A stretch of 40,248 nt of DNA, from positions 1 through 40,248 of the forward strand of contig JADIMU010000043.1 of the NCBI GenBank assembly GCA_017694495.1, given 5' to 3'. The DNA comes from Candidatus Aphodenecus pullistercoris (lineage in GTDB: Bacteria; Spirochaetota; Spirochaetia; Sphaerochaetales; Sphaerochaetaceae). Below the pieces are notes generated by a model. That model worked only from the letters and a program-made list of their open reading frames with translations, was not told where the DNA came from and searched no databases. The position numbers were made by a program, and so were the translations under genes. Of the stretch, positions 31,885 through 40,248 are shown one piece after another; the first letter of the stretch is position 1; the number at the start of each line of letters is the position of its first letter.

Positions 31885-32477
31885 CAGCTCGCGCCCTGGT
31901 CAATCATCAACTTGTAGAGCATGATGCGCCCTGCCTCCTCGAGGACGGCCTCGTCCATGAGCCTCCGCTCGCATGAGCTCTGGAGCTCGTCCACAGCCTC
32001 GCCGTACTCGTCCATCAATGGGATGCGTATGCCTGATGATGTGAGGCCCTCCTCGTCGATCGCGTCGACGCGGGAGCCCTCCTCCGGCAAGGCGCAGCCG
32101 CCGAAGCGCAAGCCCCTCCTCGTCCGGCTCGCAGCCGAGCAGAAGACGCGGCACACGATGGGTCTGACCGCATAGGCCGTGCACCTGTGGCTTGATGGGT
32201 CATACAACGGACAGGCCGAGTGGCTCATGCTCCAGTGCTCGAGGAAGTCCAGGTCGCGGCCCTGGACGTCGACCAGAGTCTGGGCGATCGCCAGAGCCTC
32301 GAGGCGCGTGACGTCAGGTATGAAGCGCTCGCAGCAGCGGCCGCACACTGTCGGACAGCTGATCGAGAAATGTCCTGTGAAAAGGTCGAAGTCGTGCTCG
32401 ATCGAGGCGTAGTAGCTCCTGATCCTCACCAAGTCGTCGTAGAGGGCTGTGCCCCTGTATGCATCAAGGTCGTCCAT
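31884..32477 (-). CDS. YkgJ-type cysteine-cluster protein
   Basis: 197 aa, cytoplasmic. SCPTVCGRCCERFIPDV gives the CxxxCxxCC cluster near residue 48, followed by ACPLYDPSSHRCTAYAVRPIVCRVF; this is the CxxCC...CP.l....C.iY..RP..CR.f pattern of the zinc- or iron-chelating family (PF03692). The remaining part is helical and acidic. Family function is unclear, with metal binding the only common theme. ATG 32477 gives MDDLDAY; a GTG at 32498 is an alternative. It is divergent from the flavodoxin gene and its 3' end abuts the sugar-operon terminator. Confidence 0.82.
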   Translation of the reverse strand: MDDLDAYRGTALYDDLVRIRSYYASIEHDFDLFTGHFSISCPTVCGRCCERFIPDVTRLEALAIAQTLVDVQGRDLDFLEHWSMSHSACPLYDPSSHRCTAYAVRPIVCRVFCSAASRTRRGLRFGGCALPEEGSRVDAIDEEGLTSSGIRIPLMDEYGEAVDELQSSCERRLMDEAVLEEAGRIMLYKLMIDQGAS

Positions 32478-32524
32478 TCTGGACGAGTCTTCTAGCACTG
32501 CTGTGGCATTCTTTGCAAGGCCTC

Positions 32525-32554
32525 TTGCACAAATGGGACAAAGCCGGGTATCCA
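32525..32554 (+). promoter_or_regulatory. Promoter of the flavodoxin gene at 32561
   Basis: TTGCAC (32525-32530), 18 bp spacer, TATCCA (32549-32554), 6 nt to ATG 32561. No Shine-Dalgarno sequence. Confidence 0.4.
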
Positions 32555-32560
32555 GAAGTC

Positions 32561-33028
32561 ATGAAAAAAGCGGTCATAGCATACTTCACACGCTCTGGAA
32601 AGAGCCGTCAGGTGGCACAGGAGCTTGCAAGGATCACAGGTGGCGAGCTGTGCCAGGTCGAGAACAGGGAAGCCTACCCTGAGGACTACAGGAGCCTCGT
32701 GGCCCTCGTCATGGATGAGGAGAAGCGCGGAGTGAAGCGCCCTCTAGCCCCGCTTGGGGCCGACTTCAGCGCCCTGGACAGGCTATACATCGTCTCTCCC
32801 AACTGGTTCGGCACCATAGTCCCGCCGATCAAACGCCTCCTCGAGGGTCTGGACCTCAACGGCAAGGAGGTGGCGCTTGTCATCACGCACGGGGGCAGCG
32901 GATGCGCCAAGGCGCCGGATGATGTCAGGAAGCTCGCACTGGGTGCCCGCTTCGTCGGCCAGCTCGCGCTGAATGTGGACGAGGGCGGCGTCGCCGGAAA
33001 GCTGGAAAACTGGACAGCAAGCCTCTAG
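32561..33028 (+). CDS. Flavodoxin family protein
   Basis: 155 aa. It starts MKKAVIAYFTRSGKSRQVAQ, with the FMN-phosphate loop FTRSGKSRQVA (Thr-x-Ser-Gly-x-Ser/Thr type) of the Flavodoxin_4 group (PF12682). LYIVSPNWFGTIVPPIKRLL, shown here in full family form 'P.w.g..pPpi..fl', and ITHGGSGCAKAPDDV complete the fold. It likely transfers electrons using FMN. ATG 32561 fits both the conserved N-terminus and the promoter; the longer frame upstream adds unrelated sequence. It is monocistronic and convergent with rpsI, sharing a hairpin. Confidence 0.87.
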   Translation: MKKAVIAYFTRSGKSRQVAQELARITGGELCQVENREAYPEDYRSLVALVMDEEKRGVKRPLAPLGADFSALDRLYIVSPNWFGTIVPPIKRLLEGLDLNGKEVALVITHGGSGCAKAPDDVRKLALGARFVGQLALNVDEGGVAGKLENWTASL

Positions 33029-34200: not shown

Positions 34201-36408
34201 TCAAAGCTTTTTCAGGTTGCAGAACTCCGTGTTGTATATGGCCTTGCGCCCGTTCTCGTAGCTGACGCGCACGATGGTCCGTCCACCCTTGGTCTCGGCG
34301 CTGACGATCTCGCCCACCCCATAGTCGGGACTCGAGACGCGGTCGCCCACCGAGAATGTCTGTGTGTTGCGCTGTCTTTGCACAGCGCGCGTCGGCGGCT
34401 GGGGAAAGGATGAGGCCGAGCTGGCGACAGGTCTGCCGTAGGCGTAGCGCTGGCTGTAGGACGACTGGCGGCTGTCGACGCTGCGTCCTGTCGTGATGCT
34501 GCCCTGGTAGAGGTTCTCGGGCAGCTCCGTCAGGAAGCGGCTGGGACTCTGGTACATGCGCTGGCCCCAGAGCATGCGCGCCTTGGCCCAGGTCAGGTAG
34601 AGTTCGCTGCGGGCCCTCGTGAGGGCGACATAGAGGATGCGCCTCTCCTCCTCGACGTCGGCCTGGCTCATGTCCATCCTGTTGCCAGGTATGATGTCGT
34701 CCTCCAGGCCCGTCACGAAGACGGTGTCGAACTCGAGGCCCTTCGTGTTGTGCATCGTGATCAGCTTGACGACATTGGGGTCCGTGCTGATCCGTCCATC
34801 CCCCTCTTCGCCCGGCAGGCTCGAGTTGTCCAGCGTGACGGTCTCCATGAAGGCGGCCAGGCCCTCGTAGGAAGGGGCGAAGGACGACATGGCCGTCACC
34901 AGGGCGTTGAGGTTCTCCAGGCGGCTCTTGCGTATGGCCTCGTCCTCCTCCTTCGAGTAGAGGTCGAGGAAGCCGAAGTCCTTCATGCATGCAGTGGCGA
35001 AGTCCTGGAGCGGAGATGCCGACTCGAGCATGCCCTTCACCTTCCTGTAGGCCTCGAGGAAGGCGGTGACCCCGCCCTTGGCCCCCTTGGTCAGACCAGC
35101 CGAGAGCAGGCTGTCCTCCATGGCGTCGATGGTATGGTCGCTGATGGAGAGGATCTTCTGGAGAGCGCTCTTGCCTATGCCGCGCGCAGGCTTGTTGACT
35201 ATCCTGGTGAAGGAGACCTTGTCGCGGGGGTTCATCACGAGGGCGAAGACGGCGAGCATGTCCTTGACCTCCTCGCGCTCGTAGAAGCGCAGGGCGCCGA
35301 CGACCTGGTACTTGATCCTCGCCTGGACGAGGGCCTGCTCGAAGGGGCGCGACTGGGCGTTGGTGCGGAAGAGGATGGCCGTATCCTTGGCTCCGAGGTC
35401 GCGGCCGATCATGCCTACGACGGCCAGGGCCTCGTCCTCCTCGCCGTAGCAGTTGACCAGTCGGGGAAGAGGTCCTGCCGGATTGTTCGTGAAGATCGTC
35501 TTCTTGTGCCTGGAGCGGTTGTGGCTGATCAGCTCGCCTGCCAGGGCTATGATGTTCCCGCTTGAGCGGTAGTTCTCCTCGAGCTTGATCTGCCTGACAT
35601 TGGAGTACTGGCGGCTGAAGGAGAGTATGTTGCCTATGTCGGCTCCGCGGAAGCGGTAGATGCTCTGGTCGTCGTCGCCGACGACTACGAGCTGGGTCGA
35701 CTGTCCCACGAGGTTCTTCAGGAAGCGGAACTGGCTGCCGTTGGAATCCTGGTACTCGTCGACGAGGATGAGCCTGTAGCGGCGGTGGAGCGCATCCTTG
35801 ACGTCAGGATTCTCCTCAAGCAGCTCGTTCGCCTTGAGTATGAGGTCGGCGAAGTCCATGCACTGGGCCTGACGAAGACCATTCTCGTAGGCCTGGTAGT
35901 GCATGCGGAAGGCGGGCAGGTCGCCGCCGTCCAGCTTCTGGTCGTCAGGCATTATGGCCATGTCCTTCAGCAGCGAGATGCGCTTCGCATAGGCCTTCAG
36001 CTGCTGCTTGCCTTCTCCTGGGAAGAGGTTTGAAAGGAGGGCCAGACTGTCCGCGTCGTCGTAGATGTTGAAGTTGTGGTCGTAGCCCAGGCGGTCGGAG
36101 TACTTGCGCAGGAGGCCTGCGCCGTAGGAGTGGAAGGTCTTGATTTCGAGGCCGCTGAGGTCCCAGCCCTCGCCGAGCATGCGCTCGACGCGCACCCTCA
36201 TCTCCTTGGCCGCCTTGTTGGTGAAGGTCACGGCCAGGATCTGCCAGGGGCGGTAGCCCAGGTCGCGGATCGAATGGACGATCTTCGTCGTGATGACCCT
36301 CGTCTTGCCGCTGCCGGCGCCGGCCAGCACGAGGAGCGTGTGCTCGTCATCGAGCACGGCCTCCCTCTGCGGTCCGTTGAGGGTGTCGAGAATGTCCTCT
36401 TCAGCCAT
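34201..36408 (-). CDS. pcrA: ATP-dependent DNA helicase PcrA/UvrD
   Basis: 735 aa superfamily 1A 3'-5' helicase for repair and removal of recombination intermediates. Motifs in order: Q-motif LNGPQREAV, Walker A LAGAGSGKTR (I), AVTFTNKAAKEMR (Ia), LILVDEYQDSN (II), VVGDDDQSIYRFRGAD (III), KLEENYRSS (IV), MHNTKGLEFDTVFV (V) and EERRILYVALTRAR (VI). The C-terminal tail (about 680-735) is the Tudor-like RNA-polymerase-binding domain of PcrA: VGDRVSSPDYGVGEIVS. Its ATG lies 8 bp inside the end of rimO, so the two are one operon. Confidence 0.96.
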   Translation of the reverse strand: MAEEDILDTLNGPQREAVLDDEHTLLVLAGAGSGKTRVITTKIVHSIRDLGYRPWQILAVTFTNKAAKEMRVRVERMLGEGWDLSGLEIKTFHSYGAGLLRKYSDRLGYDHNFNIYDDADSLALLSNLFPGEGKQQLKAYAKRISLLKDMAIMPDDQKLDGGDLPAFRMHYQAYENGLRQAQCMDFADLILKANELLEENPDVKDALHRRYRLILVDEYQDSNGSQFRFLKNLVGQSTQLVVVGDDDQSIYRFRGADIGNILSFSRQYSNVRQIKLEENYRSSGNIIALAGELISHNRSRHKKTIFTNNPAGPLPRLVNCYGEEDEALAVVGMIGRDLGAKDTAILFRTNAQSRPFEQALVQARIKYQVVGALRFYEREEVKDMLAVFALVMNPRDKVSFTRIVNKPARGIGKSALQKILSISDHTIDAMEDSLLSAGLTKGAKGGVTAFLEAYRKVKGMLESASPLQDFATACMKDFGFLDLYSKEEDEAIRKSRLENLNALVTAMSSFAPSYEGLAAFMETVTLDNSSLPGEEGDGRISTDPNVVKLITMHNTKGLEFDTVFVTGLEDDIIPGNRMDMSQADVEEERRILYVALTRARSELYLTWAKARMLWGQRMYQSPSRFLTELPENLYQGSITTGRSVDSRQSSYSQRYAYGRPVASSASSFPQPPTRAVQRQRNTQTFSVGDRVSSPDYGVGEIVSAETKGGRTIVRVSYENGRKAIYNTEFCNLKKL

Positions 36409-37735
36409 CGATCAGCACAGCCTCCAGGTCGAGGCCGCGCACGGCCCTGATGCCCACCTTGACGACATCACCCTCCTTCAGGCCCTCGCCCATTATGACG
36501 GTCAGACCGTCGACGTCCGGCGCCTGGCTGTAGATGCGTGCGATGGCGAGGTCCTCGCCCTCGATCGGCTCCTCAACGAGGGCGCGCCAGGTGGTGCCCA
36601 CGAAGCGGCCAAGCCGGCGCTCGGTGATGGCGCTCTGCCTCTCCTCCAGCTCCTTCTGCCACTTCACGGCCTGGCGGTGGGCCTTGTCGTGCTCCTTCTG
36701 ATTCCTCATAGCCCAGGCGGGAGTGTCCTCCTCCCTGGAATAGGTGAAGGAGCCCATCCAGTCCAGCTCGGCCTCGTCGACGAAGCGCTTGAGGTCCTCG
36801 AAGGCCTCCTCGTCCTCGCCGGGGAAGCCCAGCATGAGGGTGCTGCGTACTACCGCCTCTGGAATCGCGTCGCGGATGCGCCTTATGAGGGCGACGTAGG
36901 AGGACCTGTCACCCGTCCTCCTCATGCCTCTGAGCACCTTCGGATGGCTGTGCTGGAAGGGGATGTCGAAGTATGGAAGGATCTTCTCCTCCTTCGCCAC
37001 GAGGGGGATGAGGTCCTCTGGAAAGGCGTCGGGATGGATGTAGAGCATGCGTATGACGAAGTCGCCCTCGAGGTGGGCGAGTTTCGCGACGAGGTCGGTG
37101 AAGAGGGAGCGGCCTCCTGTGAGGTCCGTGCCGTAGGCGGCCAGGTCCTGGGCGACGAGGTTGATCTCCCATATGCCACGCGAGACGAGGTCCTTGACCT
37201 CTTCGATGATGTCCTCCTGTCTCCTCGAGCGCAGCGGGCCGCGGATCAGGGGGATGGCGCAGTAGGCGCAGCGGTGGTCGCAGCCTTCGCTGATCTTCAC
37301 ATAGGCGCTGCCCTTGCGGGAGAGGAGCTGGCTGCGGCGGCAGTCGTCTTTCCCCTCCCTGTAGTCGGGATGGAGGACGATCTGGCCCTCGTGTGGGCTC
37401 TCGAGGCGCTCGAGCAGCCCGGTGAAGGCCGACAGGTCCCTGTTGCCGAAGATGGCGTCCGCCTCAGGCAGCTCGAGCTGGTCCCAGTAGCGCTCGGCGA
37501 GGCAGCCGGCAAGGACGACCTTCCGGTCGGCGTAGGCCTGGCGCAGGGAGAAGAAGGTGTCGACCGCCTCCTTCTTCGCGCTCTCGATGAAGCCGCAGCT
37601 GTTGACCACGATGAGGTCGGCCTCACTGGCCTGGGCCACCGGCGTCCAGCCCGCATCGCGGGCAAGGGTGAGCAATATCTCGCTGTCCACCTGATTCTTG
37701 GCACAGCCAAGACTCTCTACATAAATTCTCTTCAT
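36401..37735 (-). CDS. rimO: Ribosomal protein S12 methylthiotransferase RimO
   Basis: 444 aa. RimO adds a methylthio group to an Asp of ribosomal protein S12, using two [4Fe-4S] clusters. N-terminal MTTase domain cysteines are Cys11 (SLGCAKNQ), Cys47 (NSCGFIE) and Cys78 (AGCLAERY); the radical-SAM cluster CxxxCxxC is Cys152, Cys156 and Cys159 (GCDHRCAYCAIPLIRGP). A TRAM domain ends the protein. The SLGCAKNxVDSE opening favours RimO over MiaB. ATG 37735 lies 9 nt after TAAGAT, with no ribosome binding site. Operon with pcrA. Confidence 0.96.
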   Translation of the reverse strand: MKRIYVESLGCAKNQVDSEILLTLARDAGWTPVAQASEADLIVVNSCGFIESAKKEAVDTFFSLRQAYADRKVVLAGCLAERYWDQLELPEADAIFGNRDLSAFTGLLERLESPHEGQIVLHPDYREGKDDCRRSQLLSRKGSAYVKISEGCDHRCAYCAIPLIRGPLRSRRQEDIIEEVKDLVSRGIWEINLVAQDLAAYGTDLTGGRSLFTDLVAKLAHLEGDFVIRMLYIHPDAFPEDLIPLVAKEEKILPYFDIPFQHSHPKVLRGMRRTGDRSSYVALIRRIRDAIPEAVVRSTLMLGFPGEDEEAFEDLKRFVDEAELDWMGSFTYSREEDTPAWAMRNQKEHDKAHRQAVKWQKELEERQSAITERRLGRFVGTTWRALVEEPIEGEDLAIARIYSQAPDVDGLTVIMGEGLKEGDVVKVGIRAVRGLDLEAVLIDG

Positions 37736-37744
37736 CGTCTGACC

Positions 37745-37797
37745 ATCTTAACGGTTTTGCCCGCATCTGGACAGAGGCCGCGCACCGGTGGGACAAT
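37745..37797. promoter_or_regulatory. Back-to-back promoters of rimO and the HExxH/DUF2786 gene
   Basis: Minus strand (rimO): TGTCCA (37768-37773), 17 bp, TAAGAT (37745-37750), 9 nt to ATG. Plus strand: TGGACA at the same 37768-37773, 18 bp, GACAAT (37792-37797), 6 nt to ATG 37804. One hexamer thus serves as -35 for both directions, so the two promoters should compete for polymerase. Confidence 0.45.
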
Positions 37798-37803
37798 CCG
37801 GTC

Positions 37804-38814
37804 ATGAATCGGCGCATACTCAAGTACAGCAGAAGATCGCTCGAAGTCTCGAAGCGGCTGAGGGAGGACCTCTCCCCCTGCCCACCCATCCTCTTCGCCG
37901 AGCTTGGGGAGAAGACGCTGGGCCTCTACGACAGCCATGATGATGTGATCCTCATCTCGAGCGGCCTGACATCCATGCCCTATGGGACGCTGCGCCAGAT
38001 CGCCCTCCATGAGAAGGCCCACCGCCTGAACTGGATAGTCAACGGCTCGCTGGAGCACGATGCCGGCTTCCGTGAGCTGTGCCGTCAGCTGGGCGTGGAC
38101 GAGGGCTACGAGAAGGCCCGTGTCGCGATCTCGAGACACAGCGGCCTCGTCGAGCGCATACGCAAGCTCAAGGCCCTCGGCGAGAGCCCCTTCGAGGCCG
38201 AGAGCCAGGCGGCTCTGGCGAAGGTGCGCTCCCTGATGGCCTCCTACGCCATCGAGGATGAGGAAGGGGACGATGACTCGATATGCATGGGCGACCTCTG
38301 GGGCCCCGTAGGGCGCATGCCCTACTCCGTCCAGGTCCTCAGCCGCATCGTCCAGCTCCACACGGGCGTCTTCGTCGTCAAGGAGCACCTGGGCGGTGGG
38401 ACGAGGCTGCGCGCCTATGGTCGGCGGGACGAGGTCGAAGTCGCCCTCTACCTGATGGAAGTGCTCCACAATGCCCTGGAGAAGGAGCTTGCCCGCCGCC
38501 GCGCCCTCACGCCTGACCTCTACTACGGAGTGGGCGGGACGAACAGCTTCTACGCAGGCGTCCTCGCGGCCATGAAGGAGCGCATGGAGAAGCATGATGG
38601 GGACAGGAGCGAGGAGAAGGCCCTCACCCTCGCCCAGGCCGACAACGAGGAGAGGGCCAGGCGGATCGTCTTCCAGGATTGCCGCATCACGAGGAGGTCA
38701 GGAAAAGGCAGGCTGAACAGGGCCGCCTATGCCGGCGGTCAGGACTACGGCTCCTCGCTGACAATCGCAAAGGGCATAGGAAAGGACAGCCATGGGCCGT
38801 TGATGCTCAGCTGA
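37804..38814 (+). CDS. HExxH (SprT-like) domain fused to DUF2786
   Basis: 336 aa, cytoplasmic. Residues about 60-97 read IALHEKAHRLNW...LEHDAGFRELCRQLG: a HExxH motif (His69, Glu70, His73) followed by a His (85) in the 'H...F..lc..lG' context of SprT-like zinc proteases. Residues about 114-152 match DUF2786: VERIRKLKALGESPFEAES, then AALAKVRSLMASYAIE. The C-terminal half (about 165-300) resembles the segment that follows DUF2786 in other proteins. SprT-like enzymes cut DNA-protein crosslinks or cleave chromatin proteins; DUF2786 has no known role. Neighbours rimO-pcrA (repair helicase) are divergent. ATG 37804 follows GACAAT by 6 nt. The fold match for the protease part is by motif only. Confidence 0.65.
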   Translation: MNRRILKYSRRSLEVSKRLREDLSPCPPILFAELGEKTLGLYDSHDDVILISSGLTSMPYGTLRQIALHEKAHRLNWIVNGSLEHDAGFRELCRQLGVDEGYEKARVAISRHSGLVERIRKLKALGESPFEAESQAALAKVRSLMASYAIEDEEGDDDSICMGDLWGPVGRMPYSVQVLSRIVQLHTGVFVVKEHLGGGTRLRAYGRRDEVEVALYLMEVLHNALEKELARRRALTPDLYYGVGGTNSFYAGVLAAMKERMEKHDGDRSEEKALTLAQADNEERARRIVFQDCRITRRSGKGRLNRAAYAGGQDYGSSLTIAKGIGKDSHGPLMLS

Positions 38815-38829
38815 CTTGAAGACTAGAAT
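38800..38829 (+). promoter_or_regulatory. aroA promoter
   Basis: TTGATG (38800-38805), 18 bp spacer, TAGAAT (38824-38829), 6 nt to ATG 38836. The -35 lies in the last codons of the preceding gene. No Shine-Dalgarno sequence (only CGGGGC before the ATG). Confidence 0.55.
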
Positions 38830-38835
38830 CGGGGC

Positions 38836-40122
38836 ATGAAAAGACTCAGCCCCTCCCCTGTCGGTGGCAGCCTCTGGATTCCATCCAGCAAGAGCCAGAC
38901 GATCAGGGGACTCCTCATAGCCCTCGCCGCCCACGACAGGTCCGTCCTTGAGAACCCGCTCTACAGCGCCGACACTGAAAGCTGCATGACGCTGCTCGAG
39001 AAGGTCGGATGCACCCTCGTCAGGAATGAGCACAGCATCCTCGTCGACTCGAGCCGGGTCGACGGACGTGGAAAGAGCATCGACATCGACACTGGCAACA
39101 GCGGGACGACGACCTACCTGGCCTATGGCATCCTCGGCACCCTCGGCTACGACAGCATCCGCCTGCATGGCGACGGCCAGCTCAACAGGAGGCCGATCGC
39201 CCCACTGGCGGAAGCCTACGCCGACCTGGGTCTGGAAGGAAGGTGCACGGATGGCTGCCCGCCTGTGACGATCACAGGCCATCTCAATGGGGGAAAGACC
39301 TCGATCGAGTGCCCGACGAGCCAGTGGCTCAGCTCCCTCCTCCTCTCCCTGCCCCTCGCCGAGGGTGACAGCATCGTCGACGTGCCCCTCCTCTACGAGA
39401 AGCCCTACGTGGGCATGACGCTGGACTGGCTCGACTGGCAAGGCATCAGCTACACGATCACAGAGGACATGCAGCATGTCGAGATCCCCGGAGGCCAGAG
39501 CTACCATCCCTTCACCCGCGCGATCGCGGGCGACTGGTCCTCGGCCTCCTTCTTCCTCGCCGCAGCCGCGATCACGGGAAGCAGGCTGACGCTCCACGGT
39601 CTGGACAAGGACGACAGCCAGGGCGACAAGGCCGTCGTCGACATCCTGTGCGACATGGGATGCACCGCCGTCTGGAATGATGGCGCACTGACGATCGAGG
39701 GACCTGAGAAGCTGCGAGGCGGCCAGTGGGACATCAACGCGACACCGGACGCATTGCCCATCCTCTCGGTCCTGGCCTGCGGTGCATCGGGTCCCGTCAG
39801 GCTCTACAACGTCGCGAGCGCACGGATAAAGGAGACGGACCGCATCAGCGCCATGGCCGGCATACTCACCCAGCTCGGTCTGAAGGTCGACGAAGGGAGC
39901 GACTACATCGAGATCCAGCCGGGCAGGCTGAAGGAGGACCTCGTCCTGCCTGGCCACGGCGACCACAGGATCATCATGGCCGAGGCCATCCTCTCCCTCG
40001 TCTGTCCCCTGACGATCGACGACGAGAGGGCGGCGGCAGTCACATTCCCGACATTCTTCACCTTGCTCGAGAGCATCAGAAAGGAGGCGTCAACGACCTG
40101 CAGCACAAGGCTGCAGACATGA
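38836..40122 (+). CDS. aroA: 3-phosphoshikimate 1-carboxyvinyltransferase (EPSP synthase)
   Basis: 428 aa. Joins shikimate-3-phosphate and phosphoenolpyruvate to EPSP in aromatic amino acid synthesis. Motifs: IPSSKSQTIRGLLIA near 15-29 (substrate Lys/Ser/Arg), DTGNSGTTTYLAYG around 91-104, QLNRRPIAPLAEA, a mid-protein AGDWSSASFFLAAAA, then RIKETDRISAMA and GHGDHRIIMAEA. The residue after GNSGT is Thr, and the usual 'G.a.t.mR' is absent, as in divergent EPSP synthases; I cannot assign class I or II. It is a single gene without other shikimate genes nearby, with its own promoter. Confidence 0.94.
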   Translation: MKRLSPSPVGGSLWIPSSKSQTIRGLLIALAAHDRSVLENPLYSADTESCMTLLEKVGCTLVRNEHSILVDSSRVDGRGKSIDIDTGNSGTTTYLAYGILGTLGYDSIRLHGDGQLNRRPIAPLAEAYADLGLEGRCTDGCPPVTITGHLNGGKTSIECPTSQWLSSLLLSLPLAEGDSIVDVPLLYEKPYVGMTLDWLDWQGISYTITEDMQHVEIPGGQSYHPFTRAIAGDWSSASFFLAAAAITGSRLTLHGLDKDDSQGDKAVVDILCDMGCTAVWNDGALTIEGPEKLRGGQWDINATPDALPILSVLACGASGPVRLYNVASARIKETDRISAMAGILTQLGLKVDEGSDYIEIQPGRLKEDLVLPGHGDHRIIMAEAILSLVCPLTIDDERAAAVTFPTFFTLLESIRKEASTTCSTRLQT

Positions 40123-40248
40123 GGAGGAGACTCCGAATGCCTGACGTTGACTAGCCCCAGTGATGAGGCTCAGGCCTCTGAACTACGTTGGTCGGGAATA
40201 TATAGGCACCAGTGGATGTGGCTCTAGTCCACTGCTTCTGCGGTGCAT
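40123..40248. other. Non-coding right edge with nested inverted repeats
   Basis: No gene of useful length is seen. GAGGC/GCCTC is at about 40164-40177. At 40210-40216 and 40228-40234, CAGTGGA pairs with TCCACTG, and outside it GCACC (40206-40210) pairs with GGTGC (40242-40246). This could be an RNA structure or the start of a feature that continues beyond the window. Confidence 0.3.

Follow-up and report, generated by a model that had tools for sequence, protein, structure and literature searches.

The question raised by this locus is what a SprT-like metalloprotease domain does when joined to a DUF2786-DUF7168 module, which has no named function yet is carried by phages of many hosts. The joined protein is encoded by an open reading frame (ORF) on a 40,248-nucleotide contig of Candidatus Aphodenecus pullistercoris (Spirochaetota, Sphaerochaetaceae), the whole of which is called the window here. 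An earlier note, made from the sequence alone, had described the ORF as a SprT-like HExxH domain fused to DUF2786 and had proposed a role in DNA or ribosome maintenance. In the literature searched, a part of all literature, the combination of SprT-like domain and DUF2786 was not found described, DUF7168 was unmentioned, and DUF2786 was mentioned a single time in each of five papers. Each domain is already known, and the combination of the SprT-like domain with DUF2786-DUF7168 would, judged from sequence, be the new part.

Domain layout, active site and predicted structure

The gene and its product comprise the following features (window coordinates):
37804..38814, + strand: SprT-DUF2786-DUF7168 fusion protein, 336 amino acids plus stop (ORF and Pfam matches)
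37804..38124, + strand: SprT-like zincin domain, residues 1-107 (PF10263; model aligned to SPRTN 6mdx)
38008..38022, + strand: HEKAH, putative zinc-binding and catalytic motif, residues 69-73
38056..38070, + strand: H85, putative third metal ligand, with F89 (HDAGF)
38146..38256, + strand: DUF2786 helical hairpin, residues 115-151 (PF10979)
38326..38667, + strand: DUF7168, residues 175-288 (PF23771; separate model of residues 101-336)
38149..38787, + strand: phrog_421 region, residues 116-328 (PHROGs, E 4e-24)

The start codon is ATG, and the alignment of relatives, whose starts were chosen by hand, runs from residue 1 with I5 and S9 nearly invariant. The profile search for SprT suggested in the earlier note returned a match to PF10263 at residues 37-99 (E 5e-5), scoring 23.6 bits against a cut-off of 25.6 by hmmscan and 26.0 bits in genome mode, while all five additional relatives, drawn from other genera (L076, L083-L086), scored 29.8-39.7 bits, above the cut-off. 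The SprT-like, DUF2786, and DUF7168 models were all matched at E ≤0.01 by 16 of 16 aligned family members, and since the relatives and the genome-mode score also exceeded the cut-off, the SprT assignment is not due to chance and the fusion is well supported as a conserved arrangement. Some of the 16 also matched YgjP-like, WLM, DUF6782, and M90 peptidase models, more weakly. In the C-terminal half of the window protein, DUF2786 scored 39.9 bits (E 4.2e-10, cut-off 23.9) and DUF7168 57.5 bits (E 1.5e-15, cut-off 25.5). The earlier assignment of residues 110-300 to DUF2786 therefore holds for residues 115-151 only, most of that half being DUF7168, which had gone unnamed. The usual bacterial SprT layout is a SprT-like domain plus Zn_ribbon_SprT (PF17283); the fusion protein shares the PF10263 domain but carries DUF2786-DUF7168 where bacterial SprT has the zinc ribbon, and PF17283 was absent from the eight families matched at E ≤0.01 by any of the 16 members. 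The window protein had no NCBIfam match, a sequence search of solved structures gave nothing useful, and profile searches returned weak zincin matches only (e.g., abylysin E 0.1 and SPRTN E 0.075).

The family ORF was collected from 69 loci, which reduced to 68 distinct sequences after removal of one duplicate and to 65 uncut sequences after exclusion of three truncated by contig ends. H69, E70, H73, H85, and F89 were invariant in 68/68 distinct sequences and were the only invariant positions within the first 104 residues of the 65 uncut sequences, among which the median pairwise identity was 31%. The C-terminal half of the uncut set retained eight invariant positions (K121, L122, S128, E133, A137, G206, G252, and G312). 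As the earlier note had it, HEKAH spans residues 69-73 and the third histidine is H85, within H85-D-A-G-F89-R-E-L-C93-R-Q-L-G97; H73 and H85 are separated by 10-13 residues in the uncut sequences, and the third histidine is followed by the pattern [D/S/G/T]-x-x-F. The SPRTN equivalent of this His-x-x-x-F pattern is HGPEF. From these residues we infer metal binding and proteolysis. Soon after the third putative ligand, position 93 (38080-38082) is cysteine in 62 of the 68 sequences and alanine in six, and C93 could, speculatively, be a regulatory cysteine of the cysteine-switch type.

An AlphaFold model of the whole protein built from a 16-row alignment had a mean pLDDT of 81 and a pTM of 0.74, with block pLDDT values of 79-95 for the SprT part, 60-71 for the DUF2786 stretch, and <50 for the last 13 residues. 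The N-terminal part was modelled in zincin order (block pLDDT 85-95), with strands at 29-32, 40-43, and 48-52, a helix at 60-80 bearing HEKAH, and H85 just before a helix at 87-96, followed by DUF2786 helices at 102-126 and 131-148, where the block pLDDT is the low value given above. Foldseek's own PDB E-values were non-significant (best 0.011, jannalysin), and structural Z scores were obtained by realigning its 1000 highest-ranked PDB chains. The twelve best alignments among these 1000 were to SPRTN, Wss1, and the minigluzincins abylysin, selecase, and jannalysin (Z 8.6-6.6), and the best were confined to residues 5-117 of the model. SPRTN 6mdx aligned over residues 9-107 (Z 8.6, rmsd 3.0 Å, 94 aligned residues), abylysin 4jiu at Z 8.6, selecase at Z 8.1, and Wss1 at Z 8.0 (5xbv) to 7.6 (5jig), the S. 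pombe Wss1 at 29-30% identity. The likeness to SPRTN and Wss1, both zincins with HExxH and a downstream histidine, concerns fold and active site only, as the fusion protein differs in having DUF2786-DUF7168 directly after the protease; Wss1 resembles it further in being without SPRTN's zinc-binding subdomain, according to an excerpt of one study (PMC9240642). A predicted protease fold with an intact-looking active site is well supported by sequence and model together.

Distribution and neighbourhood of the fusion gene

A first protein search took in 61 genomes and found the fusion in 16/16 from the window's own genus (its own genome included), in 1/21 from the rest of the family, and in none of 24 from the remainder of the class, two of which yielded DUF2786-region matches only. 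A profile of the 16 members then matched 67 of 139 family genomes in four of 22 genera, namely 16 in the own genus (g1), 48 in a second genus (g16), two in g18, and one in g9, so that occurrence of the gene throughout the genomes sampled from two genera (48/48 in g16) is well supported. No match to this profile was found in the other 18 of the 22 sampled genera, and the lineage's relatives therefore live without the fusion gene. Across the phylum, DUF2786 occurred in 19/296 genomes, and 21 DUF2786-region loci (L019-L039) compared with the family profile gave seven complete fusions, none of them outside g1 and g16, 12 loci matching only from model position 120 on and thus without SprT, and two with no match. 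Among the sampled phylum genomes the fusion was thus limited to a single family; the genome searches were centred on the window's phylum and statements of spread apply to that sample. A scan of genome contigs matched nine records, all nine labelled "uncultured Spirochaetales bacterium".

Elsewhere in the phylum SprT-like matches were not uncommon, occurring in 87/296 genomes, 45 of them above the cut-off, a count in which many matches cover only part of the model and which may include YgjP-type relatives alongside true SprT. The control genome of Corynebacterium glutamicum matched both SprT-like and DUF2786, at the genome level. The fusion gene was the sole SprT-like match in six carrier genomes; an additional SprT-like gene with a weaker match was present in two other carriers (G012 and G373), and four family genomes without the fusion had zero SprT-like matches. 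A second type of SprT-like fusion was observed in one genome each of g1 (L087, 1942-2928, + strand) and g16 (L088, 1425-2216, - strand), where a SprT-like region of 20.2 bits, below the cut-off, is joined to about 200 residues that lack any convincing Pfam match and look alike by eye; the L087 gene sits between a Fic/DOC gene and one for a small C2H2 zinc-finger protein.

The surroundings of the fusion gene in the window are:
34201..36408, - strand: UvrD/PcrA/Rep-type helicase (best model PcrA TIGR01073, 612.8 bits, under the cut-off of 911.2)
36401..37735, - strand: rimO, divergent neighbour (TIGR01125, 413.9 bits vs 356.95)
37768..37797, + strand: promoter-like site TGGACA-18-GACAAT (consensus match only)
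38836..40122, + strand: aroA, downstream same-strand neighbour (TIGR01356, 338.5 bits vs 287.25)

The divergence from rimO and the UvrD/PcrA-type helicase described earlier was borne out by ORF coordinates and NCBIfam, and rplM and rpsI, like rimO and aroA, scored above their NCBIfam cut-offs. The -35 hexamer said to be shared between the divergent genes was not recovered, as each of the three promoter-like sites that a scan of 37600-38900 detected is on the + strand. The nearest site ends six bases before the ATG, and a transcript from it would therefore be nearly leaderless. No Rfam match was found over 36000-40248 and no tRNA in the window. A flavodoxin-like protein (PF12682, 42.3 bits) is encoded at 32459-33028, beside the ribosomal protein pair.

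Within the own genus, rimO adjoins the fusion gene divergently in 12/16 genomes and aroA follows directly in 9/16, the remaining genomes showing partly contig ends and partly neighbours separated by some kilobases. The g16 neighbourhoods were viewed in 14 of the 48 genomes, hand-chosen and with flanks, and contained rimO in 12 and aroA in seven of the fetched stretches, several with intervening genes or altered order. The rplM-rpsI pair also lay near the fusion gene in several genomes, and neither rimO nor aroA was present in the neighbourhoods of the three g18 and g9 loci. Because the neighbourhood is partly common to two genera, we take the fusion gene to be a long-standing part of the chromosome, probably inherited vertically, and not a recent acquisition.

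The C-terminal half and its stand-alone relatives

The two halves of the protein differ in charge, with median pI values across 65 sequences of 5.5 for the SprT half, 9.8 for DUF2786, and 9.3 for DUF7168; the median charge of the C-terminal half was +9.4, ranging down to -2.5, and that of the window protein is +3.6. A second model of residues 101-336 alone had a mean pLDDT of 83.5 and a pTM of 0.70, with core blocks at pLDDT 93-97 over residues 161-260, and the modelled DUF7168 core runs strand-helix-strand-strand-helix from residue 159, plus further helices. KH domains, several of them solved with single-stranded DNA (ssDNA), recurred among the matches of this model at non-significant E-values, and the KH-like match of DUF7168 reached Z 5.0-5.6 in the whole model and 4.1-4.8 alone. 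The predicted resemblance is weak, and no KH assignment is made for DUF7168, as its Z scores were tied with those of RNA polymerase L/K subunits and microcompartment shell proteins.

Stand-alone members of the same family as the C-terminal half occur in phages and some bacteria; they differ from the fusion protein in lacking SprT and are mostly 200-330 amino acids long, with two shorter pieces of 60 and 106 amino acids. phrog_421 was matched by 6/6 phage relatives scanned, and a search of viral models gave 27 matches at E ≤0.001, six named DUF2786 or DUF7168 and the rest uncharacterized or nameless. Carriage of the SprT fusion by phages was considered from long BFVD proteins (Colly_1, A0A6J5R8L4) aligned over 333-366 columns and was not borne out in the one gene followed up, that of Colly_1, which has an N-terminal DUF2786, a longer middle, and no SprT. 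In Maribacter phage Colly_1 (L140, 3407-5030) the gene immediately before the stand-alone DUF2786 gene is annotated as a matrixin-family metalloprotease, a zincin and DUF2786 thereby occurring as separate genes.

Ten hand-chosen phage records containing a relative were viewed, and in six of them it lay near replication or transposition genes. In Xanthomonas phage Mallos a Gp2.5-like ssDNA-binding protein (phrog_112) and a Cas4-family exonuclease are encoded to one side of the gene and DNA polymerase and helicase to the other, with small genes intervening. In PaMx74 the relative has polymerase, helicase, and a putative DNA-binding protein nearby; in Erebus it shares its stretch with genes for exonuclease, helicase, RNase H, and polymerase, and queuosine-type genes adjoin it. 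It stands beside a primase-helicase in ART and after transposition genes in two Mu-like phages. It was not directly among replication genes in the other four (TSW001, Me-ZS1, Colly_1, and Soups), where thymidylate synthase and dUTPase are nearby in TSW001, the surrounding genes are mostly unnamed in Me-ZS1, and an HNH endonuclease adjoins with an exonuclease about 2 kb off in Soups (a weak match, E 0.9). Likewise, the relative on a Nostoc plasmid is not directly among replication genes, the nearest DNA-repair gene being dinB about 2 kb off. A DUF2786 protein of Stenotrophomonas phage AXL1 is listed under DNA replication, repair, and packaging in the portion of its description consulted (PMC9206674). 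The phage setting of the stand-alone relatives, often near DNA-replication genes, hints at the module's role.

Proposed function and its alternatives

That the DUF2786-DUF7168 module is joined to a SprT-type protease throughout a lineage provides a "Rosetta stone" link, which predicts that the module acts on DNA. Since a zinc ribbon was undetected in the 16 members and the protease is succeeded by a module of phage type that is mostly basic, this module may direct the protease to DNA. The reading we prefer, for which the chances appear about even, is that of a chromosomal, lineage-kept, DNA-directed zinc protease. Its N-terminal SprT-type zincin would bind one zinc via H69, H73, and H85, with E70 as the general base, and the DUF2786-DUF7168 half, standing in place of the zinc ribbon of ordinary bacterial SprT (or of the zinc-binding subdomain and basic region of SPRTN), would keep the enzyme on DNA, probably single-stranded or junction DNA. 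This tethering would confine proteolysis to proteins trapped on, or crosslinked to, that DNA, and DNA-protein crosslinks would be the substrate. The SPRTN protease relies for its activity on a pair of DNA-contacting elements next to its core, namely the zinc-binding subdomain and the basic region, and responds to junctions of single- and double-stranded DNA, as stated in the excerpt of the SPRTN study (PMC9240642). Weighing against the DNA-directed reading are the non-significant Foldseek E-values, the tie of the KH-like match with other folds, the only mildly basic C-terminal half of the window protein, the 18 sampled genera with no match, the four phage records and the Nostoc plasmid in which the relative is away from replication genes, and the second SprT-like gene of two genomes. 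A limited search of the literature, including sources available in part, found no report of activity for any bacterial SprT. If the DNA-directed reading is true, a protease-plus-sensor design would be added to bacterial crosslink repair.

A bolder extension, offered tentatively, is that DUF2786-DUF7168 is a sensor of single-stranded or damaged DNA that is used alone in phage replication complexes, and that in one spirochaete lineage it became joined to a SprT protease, the product being retained as that lineage's standard enzyme of DNA-protein crosslink repair. If true, this would give the first functional handle on a widespread module.

The main rival is a signalling protease similar to PprI/IrrE, in which ssDNA arising from damage would switch on cleavage of one specific repressor and so launch a response. 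PprI/IrrE is likewise a zincin solved with ssDNA, IrrE 3dte and PprI-ssDNA 8sln both align to the N-terminal domain (Z 5.5), and a nucleic-acid-sensing partner domain and one conserved gene per genome would suit a regulator. We nevertheless consider it unlikely, as SPRTN, Wss1, and the minigluzincins align better, Pfam gives SprT-like and no IrrE-type family among the three matched by the window protein at E ≤10, and the common neighbours identified (rimO, the helicase, aroA, rplM, and rpsI) include no repressor, a class of gene not sought systematically.

An RNA- or ribosome-associated protease tied to rimO, rplM, and rpsI is less likely again. KH domains are often RNA-binding, and the weak KH-like resemblance of DUF7168 would fit such a role together with rimO nearby and rplM-rpsI in several genomes, but rimO is usually divergent, its adjacency is gone in some carrier genomes, and several phage relatives of the C-terminal half lie near DNA genes. 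Of the role proposed in the earlier note, the DNA part is thus the better supported, by the SPRTN/Wss1-like fold, the C-terminal half that is basic in most members, and the phage relatives near replication or transposition genes, while the ribosome part derives from the neighbours rimO, rplM, and rpsI only.

Slightly more doubtful still is a phage-derived defence or counter-defence protein. The C-terminal half belongs to a phage family, and polyvalent proteins of mobile elements are often fusions of a zincin with the ssDNA-binding ArdC-N domain, as reported in the part of the source consulted (PMC5512222), a comparable joining of a nucleic-acid-binding part to a zincin, although with another binding domain, order, and genomic setting. 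Against this, the window protein had no match in PADLOC or among plasmids and one weak, partial match among phages, and all genomes sampled from two genera have the gene, in many cases at the same place in the chromosome. Scans of viral contigs with two fusion queries and one stand-alone query, using exact short patterns, also found no relative; these negatives are weak because the stand-alone query found none either. Finally, a metal-binding scaffold, no longer active as a protease and serving only to bind nucleic acid, would accord with proteolysis of the fusion protein being a prediction, but is very improbable given that E70 and all three histidines are kept in every distinct sequence.
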